Part shown: one piece after another, positions 200 to 38,859 of the stretch
Layout: every line of letters starts with the position of its first letter
Position numbering within the stretch: the stretch's first letter is position 1
Assembly (NCBI GenBank): GCA_022563195.1
Contig: JADFNV010000015.1
Coordinates: forward strand, 657 to 64,656
Reading direction: 5' to 3'
Source: Pseudomonadota bacterium
GTDB taxonomy: Bacteria > Pseudomonadota > Gammaproteobacteria > Steroidobacterales > Woeseiaceae
DNA length: 64,000 nucleotides
The notes under the pieces: model-generated
Told to the model about the DNA's origin: nothing
What the model saw: the letters and a program-made list of their open reading frames with translations, nothing else
The model's database searches: none
Translations under genes and position numbers: made by a program

Positions 200-276
200 T
201 GGTAGCGGGGGCAGGATTTGAACCTGCGACCTTCGGGTTATGAGCCCGACGAGCTGCCAGACTGCTCCACCCCGCA
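200..276 (-). tRNA. tRNA-fMet (CAT), initiator type
   Basis: Cloverleaf with CTCATAA anticodon loop, GGG/CCC anticodon-stem pairs typical of initiators, GGTTCAAATCC T-arm, encoded CCA. Confidence 0.95.
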
Positions 277-24845: not shown

Positions 24846-26003
24846 TTAGCTCGTTACTGTGGATCTTGCGCCGGTGAGTCTCCTGAAATCCATAATCTGG
24901 ATAAAGCGCTCAAACAATGGCAGCAAATCATGTGGTCCCGGACTGGCCTCGGGGTGCCCCTGGAAGCTGAAGGCCAGTTCGTCTTTGAGCGTAATGCCCT
25001 GCAGCGTCCCATCGAATAAGGAACGGTGGGTTGCCTCGACATTGTCGGGCAAGCTCTCCTCCTCGACGGTAAAACCATGATTCTGGCTGGTAATCAGGAC
25101 CCGGCCGCTTGCAAGGTCCTGCACCGGGTGATTTGCGCCATGATGCCCAAATTTCATCTTCACCGTTTTCGCACCCGCTGCGAGCGCCAGTAATTGGTGG
25201 CCCAGACAGATGCCAAATACCGGCACGCCAACACTTATGAATTCTTTAATTGCGGCAATCGCGTAGTCGCACGGCTCAGGATCTCCGGGCCCATTGGACA
25301 GAAAAATGCCATTCGGACGCAATGCCAGCGTTTCTTCGGCACTGGTCTTCGCGGGTACTACCGTCATGCGGCAGTCGAGATCAGACAGCAGGCGCAGGAT
25401 ATTGCGCTTGATGCCGAAGTCGTAGGCAACGACGTGATAATGGGCGACGCGCCGGCTCAGGATGCGTGCCTTACGACCGAAGCTGCTGCCATGACACCAC
25501 TGATACGCGATATCCGTAGTGACGAACTTGGCCAGATCCATGCCAGCGATGCCCGGAAACTTGCATGCGTGCTCGATGGCGATCTTGGGATCCACGTCAC
25601 CGGTCATGATGCAACCCGACTGCACGCCTTTCTCCCGAATGATTCTCGTGAGCTTGCGGGTATCGATGTCAGCGATCGCGACCGTGTTTCCCTGCAGCAG
25701 AAACTCACTGAAGGAGCGCTCTGAACGCCAATTACTGTTTACCAGGGAACTGTCACGGATGATCAGTCCCGACGCATGAATACGCGAGGATTCCATATCG
25801 TCGCTGTTGGTGCCGGTGTTGCCGATATGAGGACAAGTCAGTGTGACGATCTGGCGGCAGTACGACGGATCCGTCAGAATTTCCTGGTAACCCGTCATTG
25901 CAGTGTTGAAGACTACTTCGCCAATGGTCTTGCCCTCGGCCCCTACCGAGGTTCCGCGGAATATGGTTCCGTCTTGTAGTGCCAGAACAGCAGGCGTACT
26001 CAA
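24846..26003 (-). CDS. carA: Carbamoyl-phosphate synthase small subunit (TTG start)
   Basis: [14 protein letters not shown]-type class I GATase, adjacent to carB; TTGAGTACGCC start after AAGGG. Confidence 0.97.
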
Positions 26004-26140: not shown

Positions 26141-26929
26141 TTACGGTTTATCGAGTAGCACTTCGCGCATTCGATAACGCCCCGGACTTTGGCGGACCAC
26201 CCACCTGGCAGCGCGCAGCGCACCATCGGCAAACACCTGTCGTGATGTCACGCTATGTCGAAACGTTAGGCTTTCAGCCGATGATGAAAGTATTACCGAG
26301 TGGTCGCCGGGCACCTCGCCGCGTCGTTCAACCTCGAAGCGGATGTCACCGGCGGCTGGTTCACGGCTTTTGGCGTCAGGTTCGTACCAGGAGACATCGG
26401 CGAAATTCTGCCGTCTCGCCGCCGCAATAGCTTCGCCCAGCTTCAACGCAGTACCAGAAGGAGCATCGATTTTGTGCACATGGTGGATTTCGTGCACTTC
26501 AGCTTCGAAATCGAAACCAAGCAATGCCGCTGCTTGTCCGACCAGGCTTTCCAGCACCGCAATGCCAATACTCATGTTGCGGTCATAGACGACGGGAACT
26601 ATTGCTGACGCACTATCCAGACGGAGCTGTTGCTCAGCACTCAGGCCGCTGACACCGCAAACCAATGGTGTACCTTGTGCAACGATGGCCTGGAGGACTG
26701 TGTCCGTTGCTTCGGGCAAGCTGAAATCAATAAGCACATCGGCGGCGCCAACGACTCGATTGATGTCATCGCTAAGCAACAGATCGGATGATTGCCTGAG
26801 ATCCGAACATTGCTCCTCGTCGCGCACCCACAGACTCACCAGTTGACAATCCTCGGCTGCGTTGATCGCCTGTATGAGCGCCCGACCCATGCGGCCAGCA
26901 CCTGCGATACCAATAGAGACGGAATTGAT
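26141..26929 (-). CDS. dapB: 4-hydroxy-tetrahydrodipicolinate reductase; proposed AUC start at 26929
   Basis: SIGIAGAGRMGRALIQAI Rossmann motif extends upstream of the ORF-track ATG at 26890; EVHEIHHVHKIDAPSGTALKLGE. Confidence 0.9.
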   Translation of the reverse strand: MNSVSIGIAGAGRMGRALIQAINAAEDCQLVSLWVRDEEQCSDLRQSSDLLLSDDINRVVGAADVLIDFSLPEATDTVLQAIVAQGTPLVCGVSGLSAEQQLRLDSASAIVPVVYDRNMSIGIAVLESLVGQAAALLGFDFEAEVHEIHHVHKIDAPSGTALKLGEAIAAARRQNFADVSWYEPDAKSREPAAGDIRFEVERRGEVPGDHSVILSSSAESLTFRHSVTSRQVFADGALRAARWVVRQSPGRYRMREVLLDKP

Positions 26930-26997
26930 GGCCGCTTCCTTTTCAGAGATCCAGATCGAAGATTACGGCACGGGCATTGCCGCCGCCAGTCGCCGGG

Positions 26998-28122
26998 CTA
27001 GCCGATGCGTTCAAAAAAACGTTTCACCGAATCCAGCCAACCACCGGCGCGCGGACTGTGTTTTTCGCCTCCGTCGCGGATCGAACTCTCAAACCGAGCC
27101 AGCAATTCCTTTTGCTCGGCCGTCAGATTAACAGGCGTCTCTACAGAAACTTTCGCAAACAAATCGCCTTTACGGGGGTCTCGCGCAGTCGTAACGCCTT
27201 TACCGCGCAATCGAAATATCTTGCCCGATTGCGTTCCGACCGGCACCTTCAGGGAAACATTGCCGTCCAGCGTCGGCAATTCAACGTCACCCCCAAGGGT
27301 GGCGGTCGCCATGCTGATAGGAATCTCGCAAGCCAGATCGGCGCCATCACGGGTAAAGAGTTTGTGCGCGTTTACACGTATCTCGACGTATAGATCGCCG
27401 GGCGGACCGCCATTCCTGCCTGCTTCGCCCTCGCCCGAAAGACGAATCCGGTCGCCATCGTCAACACCTGCCGGAACCTTGACCGCCAGTGTCTTGGTTT
27501 TTCGTATTCGTCCGCGACCCTGGCAGGCACCGCAAGGATCCGAAATCACTGTGCCGGCGCCCTTGCAGGCTGGACAGGATTGCTGAATCGAGAAAAACCC
27601 CTGCTGCATGCGAACCTGGCCCACGCCACCACAAGTTGAACATTTGACGGGCTGGGTGCCCTTTTTCGCGCCACTGCCCTCACAGCTCGAGCACGTCACT
27701 TGGGTTGGCACCTCAATGGCGACAGATTCACCGCTAACGGCCTTTTCCAGGTCAAGGCGCAGATCGTAGCCAAGGTCTGCACCGCGAAATACCTGGCTGC
27801 GACGTTGTCTTCCACCGCCAAAGATGTCACCGAATACATCGCCGAAAATATCGCCGAATCCTTCCCCACCAAAGCCTCCTGCGCCGCCGGTTCTGGCGCT
27901 GAGTCCATCGTGACCAAATCGATCGTAAGTTGCCCGTTTATCCGTATCGTTCAGGACCTCGTACGCTTCCTTGGATTCCTTGAATTTTGCCTCGGCGTTT
28001 TTGTCGTTTTTGTTCCGATCCGGGTGATGCTTCATAGCCATGCGACGATAGGCTTTCTTGATCTCCGCGGCTGCGGCCGTTTTCGGGACTCCAAGGACCT
28101 CGTAATAATCGCGTTTGGCCAT
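26998..28122 (-). CDS. dnaJ: Chaperone protein DnaJ
   Basis: J domain HPDRN, four CxxCxGxG-type zinc motifs. Confidence 0.98.
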
Positions 28123-38498: not shown

Positions 38499-38859
38499 GG
38501 GGGTGACATGGCTTCGACGTGGGTCGCGACACTCTGAGTGCATGCCGAGGAACAGACTACCTCGTTAATCCAGCTGTAAAACCTATAGTTGCCAACGACG
38601 ACAACTACGCACTAGCTGCTTAAAAACCAGTTTAGCGCCCTCTGACCAAATGTGCCTGTGCGTTCGGGGTTCAGGGGTCACCGACACGGGACCGCGGCAA
38701 GGGTGTGTTCAGGGCCCAAACCGTTAAATCCTTCCTGAGCTGGCTATGAGTCTTCCCTGCCCGTCGGGTAGCCCATAGTGAGATTAAAGACGGAATAAGC
38801 ATGTAGATCTTGGGGCAGAGGGCTTGCGGACGTGGGTTCGATTCCCACCACCTCCACCA
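38499..38859 (+). ncRNA. ssrA: tmRNA (one-piece), encoded CCA
   Basis: 5' GGGGGTGACATGGCTTCGACG pairs with 3' CACCTCCACCA; tag ORF; T-arm GTGGGTTCGATTCCCAC. Confidence 0.97.
38591..38623 (+). other. tmRNA proteolysis tag ANDDNYALAA*
   Basis: GCC AAC GAC GAC AAC TAC GCA CTA GCT GCT TAA. Confidence 0.93.

Follow-up and report, generated by a model that had tools for sequence, protein, structure and literature searches.

The dapB gene of this Woeseiaceae lineage very probably starts at an AUC or AUU codon that is read by the ordinary fMet-tRNA; initiation there would be inefficient and IF3-sensitive, partly offset by a Shine-Dalgarno (SD) sequence, and would yield little DapB. DapB is an essential enzyme of cell-wall and lysine synthesis. 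The location of the start site at the AUC/AUU codon is strongly supported by the comparison of related genomes; beyond this, we infer a low DapB output with a physiological purpose and, by analogy with known systems, control of dapB by IF3.

The dapB locus and its reading frame

The window, a stretch of 64,000 nucleotides from a Woeseiaceae MAG (82.65% complete, 5% contamination), carries on its minus strand the gene row hrcA, grpE, dnaK, dnaJ, dapB, carA, carB and greA, in which greA and hrcA were named by size, position and sequence, without a family search. dapB (4-hydroxy-tetrahydrodipicolinate reductase; 26141..26929, minus strand) encodes 262 amino acids from the AUC codon, and its coordinates include the terminal TAA (26143-26141). 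The upstream operon neighbour dnaJ (26998..28122, minus strand) has its stop 68 nt before the AUC, and the downstream neighbour carA (24846..26003, minus strand) has a TTG start. The putative start codon, ATC at 26929-26927, was placed by the comparative alignment column and by the coding boundary in pN/pS. It is preceded by the SD sequence AAAAGGA (26943-26937) with a 7-nt spacer and an anti-SD duplex energy of -5.6 kcal/mol, and an in-frame TAA (26965-26963) closes the dapB frame on its 5' side, all on the minus strand. ATG, GTG, TTG and CTG were sought in frame from this TAA to the Rossmann motif and none was found, as the initial annotation had stated; the bases and coordinates it quoted for the TAA, the ATC and an ATG at 26890 are all exact, and the SD that it placed 7 nt before the ATC is borne out by the sequence. 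Two more in-frame ATC codons (26956-26954 and 26950-26948), not mentioned in that annotation and lacking in relatives, are situated on the 5' side of the SD. The start region has less structure than gene-internal windows, and Rfam matches within the window were confined to tRNA and tmRNA, with no known riboswitch near dapB.

The product translated from the AUC matched TIGR00036 over its full length (2e-52, 178.4 bits; curated cut-off 122) as well as both Pfam domains, DapB_N and DapB_C, and the substrate/catalytic motif HHxHKxDAPSGTA, aligned to solved DapB, is present as IHHVHKIDAPSGTA. The GxxGxxG loop (window 26900-26885) is one residue shorter, of the GxGRMG type, in 63/63 DapBs examined from the genus group, and the nucleotide-binding loop is GxxGRMG in 7/7 from outgroup families. 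A second, distant DapB-like ORF (31-34% identity) was seen at G014:C4:2029-2760, G043:C21:35670-36377 and G039:C19:171322-172008, and in G043 it was the sole dapB match found.

Coding constraint, as judged from the alignment, begins at the ATC or ATT (ATY) codon. Among 34 ungapped sequences, whose rows are not independent, pN/pS was 1.005 in the 6 codons before ATY and 0.44 in the 8 codons after it, and the other two frames of the same stretch gave 1.4-1.7. These values bear on the first canonical in-frame start, the ATG at 26890-26888 (minus strand), which supplies the Met of GAGRMG inside the glycine-rich loop IAGAGRMGR. Initiation there would produce a DapB beginning MGR that lacks β-strand 1 and half of the glycine loop, whereas the AUC start would give an (f)MNSVSIGIAGAGR-type N-terminus. 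The Met at 26890 is conserved (GRMG), and automated annotation that accepts no start but ATG/GTG/TTG would pick it; however, the preceding codons show constraint at the protein level, and in the dapB frame only. The residues that they encode align to solved DapB structures, the best homologues aligning from query residue 2 (4f3y) or 5 (8d57), and the SD precedes them. When the ATG is taken as the start, the DapB_N score drops from 88.4 to 72.4 bits with the loss of β-strand 1 and the first glycines. ATG/GTG/TTG starts of relatives lie 7-13 codons upstream of the motif and none coincides with the GRMG Met. We therefore consider translation from the internal ATG highly unlikely and do not take it as the true start.

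Conservation of the ATC/ATT codon in the genus group

The genus search covered 73 genomes; dapB was found in 65 of them and its 5' end was readable in 64. The codon at the aligned dapB start was ATC in 27 and ATT in 11 genomes (together 38/64), and ATA in none. This comparison of dapB 5' ends in sister genomes, which had been suggested as a check, clearly favours the AUC start and agrees with the proposal of an infC/pcnB-like initiation. A sequencing or assembly error, in which a true ATG, GTG or TTG was miscalled, had been named as the main alternative, and the window does stem from a MAG (83% complete, 5% contamination). It fails on the 38 separately assembled, independent species genomes that carry ATC or ATT with a conserved SD, including the 84%-identical G057 and G059, which share the non-canonical codon: its recurrence in 38 species rules out a miscall, and we give the error next to no weight.

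In 24 of the 38 ATY genomes no ATG, GTG or TTG occurs anywhere from the in-frame stop to the glycine motif, and in 9 genomes this stop lies merely 4-6 codons before the ATY codon, leaving hardly any space for an earlier start. The other 14 have some ATG, GTG or TTG within the open frame ahead of the motif, and in G023, G086, G064 and G024 an alternative GTG or TTG start might conceivably be used. Canonical dapB starts were found in 26 relatives, indicating that the trait can be lost, and members of other families of the order (14 outgroup families checked) all have canonical dapB start candidates. Natural substitutions confirm the start position: G040 carries ATG at the very codon that is ATT in its sister G077 (pair support 1.0), and in G070 an ATG lies one codon upstream of the position where its sister G002 has ATC.

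An SD-like purine stretch at almost constant spacing lies ahead of the codon in all 38 ATC/ATT genomes, and a G is present at -10 in 32/34 aligned relatives. Judged from these alignments, the recurrence of ATC/ATT at the equivalent codon with an SD at near-constant spacing is far beyond chance. The mean SD duplex energy was -6.5 kcal/mol for ATY dapB versus -2.9 kcal/mol for canonical-start dapB (p = 9e-8, kinship ignored), and the canonical starts are mostly GTG, ATG or TTG codons that overlap or abut the dnaJ stop (GTGA, ATGA) with little SD. This contrast points to two alternating designs, a weak codon with a strong SD and a canonical codon with a weak SD near dnaJ termination.

Since dnaJ ends close by, 10-74 nt upstream, and shares the frame in a few genomes, the DapB N-terminus might also be supplied by an earlier start or by read-through or frameshift out of dnaJ. 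We regard this as very improbable: in the window an extra TAA (26965) stands between dnaJ and the ATC, at least 12 ATY genomes have an in-frame stop at or past the dnaJ stop, the frame relation between dnaJ and dapB varies between genomes, and the sequence from the stop to the ATY is unconstrained (pN/pS 1.0).

Evolutionary history, control genes and initiator tRNA

On a tree built from DnaJ, DnaK, CarA, CarB and GrpE, parsimony gave two solutions for the ATY start, one gain with six losses and three gains with four losses, and the clade of 48 genomes to which most ATY forms belong had a support of 1.0. The third base of the start codon underwent at least 7 changes between C and T and none to A, with few returns to a canonical codon. 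By comparison, an Ile codon close by in β-strand 1 is ATA in 17/34 sequences and shows at least 6 changes involving A or G, so that the third base of the start codon is under a constraint that ordinary Ile codons lack.

These patterns bear on the strongest rival on function, namely that the codon has no regulatory role and that translational coupling to dnaJ makes it near-neutral and free to drift among AUG, AUC and AUU. dapB does follow closely behind dnaJ, where re-initiating ribosomes are already loaded, and in several relatives the canonical start overlaps the dnaJ stop (GTGA, ATGA). Drift should, however, yield AUA and frequent reversion to AUG, and neither ATA nor more than a few canonical returns were seen over a lineage length of ~3 substitutions/site. 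Moreover, strong SDs accompany the ATY forms and weak SDs the overlapping canonical forms, which makes the ATY sites look like sites of de novo initiation. We judge drift under coupling to be unlikely, while granting it more room than any other alternative.

The neighbouring genes served as controls. dnaJ, dnaK, grpE, carA, hrcA and carB have canonical starts near the expected position (48-71 genomes each, with up to 71 genomes in this check, 7 of which are outgroup); the three hits without a nearby canonical start were all truncated or partial, and none had ATH at the expected codon. A genus-wide relaxation of start choice was rejected, since the genes on either side of dapB in the operon retain canonical start codons. 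carA (window 26003), directly after dapB, starts with TTG in 63/67 genomes, a constant weak, though canonical, start. In the syntenic first 38 kb, inspected by eye in 10 relatives, no gene besides dapB was clearly conserved with a conserved N-terminus before its first canonical start; nuoN, nuoF, nuoK, greA, carA and folP were considered as further cases and set aside, as they looked like neighbour overlap, SD region or variable N-terminus. As a positive control, infC had an ATC start with a GGAG-type SD in 30/30 loci (L214-L243), indicating that the lineage retains the classical IF3-discriminated start; this infC start would escape gene callers restricted to ATG/GTG/TTG. pcnB in the genus starts with TTG in 30/30, so that the AUU of E. 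coli pcnB is not common to the genus.

A special initiator tRNA with the anticodon GAU could read AUC and AUU efficiently, and AUC plus AUU without AUA is exactly the reading set of this anticodon. Yet the initiator tRNA matches in 49 genomes had exclusively the CAT anticodon in a search that left the first anticodon base free and tolerated 3 mismatches; incomplete genomes could hide a divergent gene, and we rate a dedicated tRNA as very improbable. The initiator tRNA gene of the window (203-276, minus strand, CAT anticodon) and a tmRNA gene (38499-38859, plus strand) flank the nuo-to-hrcA block, and since many relatives have an initiator tRNA at a distance of ~26-27 kb from dapB, synteny of the block extends over the genus.

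Proposed mechanism and comparison with known systems

We propose that fMet-tRNA (anticodon CAU) would pair with the first two bases of AUC or AUU and be mismatched at the third, and that proofreading by IF3 against such mismatched complexes would render dapB initiation inefficient, with the strong, well-placed SD compensating in part for the weak codon. DapB would as a result be synthesised at a low rate that is sensitive to IF3 and independent of the abundant chaperones encoded upstream (grpE-dnaK-dnaJ). IF3 was found experimentally to repress AUU and GTC starts in vivo, for infC and sigR (PMC5472188), and in vitro the reading of AUU by CAU declines as IF3 is raised (PMC10158994). A plausible purpose would be to keep DapB low despite the position of its gene after strongly expressed, stress-induced chaperone genes; a second would be to couple DAP/lysine synthesis to the IF3:ribosome ratio. 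AUC or AUU at one dapB position, kept over long evolution in a large group of uncultured marine bacteria, suggests a deliberate brake on the amount of enzyme.

More tentatively, meso-DAP/lysine synthesis might stand under IF3, with DapB tracking the IF3-to-30S ratio in parallel to infC and with selection having retained AUC/AUU, to the exclusion of AUG and AUA, during most of the family's diversification. We see this as possible but rather doubtful; if true, it would tie the supply of wall and lysine precursors to the state of the translation machinery.

Starts at AUU or AUC are extremely rare: a survey of 61,358 ancestral AUG starts recorded a single change to AUU (PMC5622118), and according to PMC9410913 two genes of E. 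coli start with AUU. Among open-licence papers we found none that describes a non-canonical start of dapB, and no literature on Woeseia start codons. A metabolic gene with AUC/AUU across tens of species represents a natural experiment on the purpose of a weak start codon, to which sister species differing at exactly this codon add. On the practical side, gene callers limited to ATG/GTG/TTG would truncate the essential DapB throughout a lineage, and comparative scans can reveal conserved non-canonical starts.

Of the known systems, infC resembles dapB in its lineage-conserved AUC/AUU start with a strong SD, the infC of the same genus having ATC throughout the 30 loci; it differs in that it encodes IF3 itself, whose weak codon closes a feedback loop, whereas dapB encodes a biosynthetic enzyme with no known IF3 feedback. 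pcnB is, like dapB, a gene other than infC with an AUU start, which is described as limiting expression in E. coli (Binns and Masters 2002, as cited in PMC9410913), but the AUU is known from E. coli and the genus studied here constantly has TTG. In Streptomyces, sigR starts with GTC in 32/34 cases and with GTT in the other two, has a conserved strong SD and is repressed by IF3 (PMC5472188); it shares with dapB a genus-conserved non-canonical start with a strong SD, and it is misannotated by pipelines. Unlike dapB, sigR has GTC rather than ATY, encodes a regulatory sigma factor, with the start codon determining how much of it is made relative to its antisigma factor, and was tested experimentally. 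dapB fits every tested sequence-level feature of the infC/pcnB/sigR class, and by analogy a response to IF3 is predicted. We accordingly file it, by its sequence features, as a putative new and clade-conserved member of the very small known class of IF3-discriminated starts.
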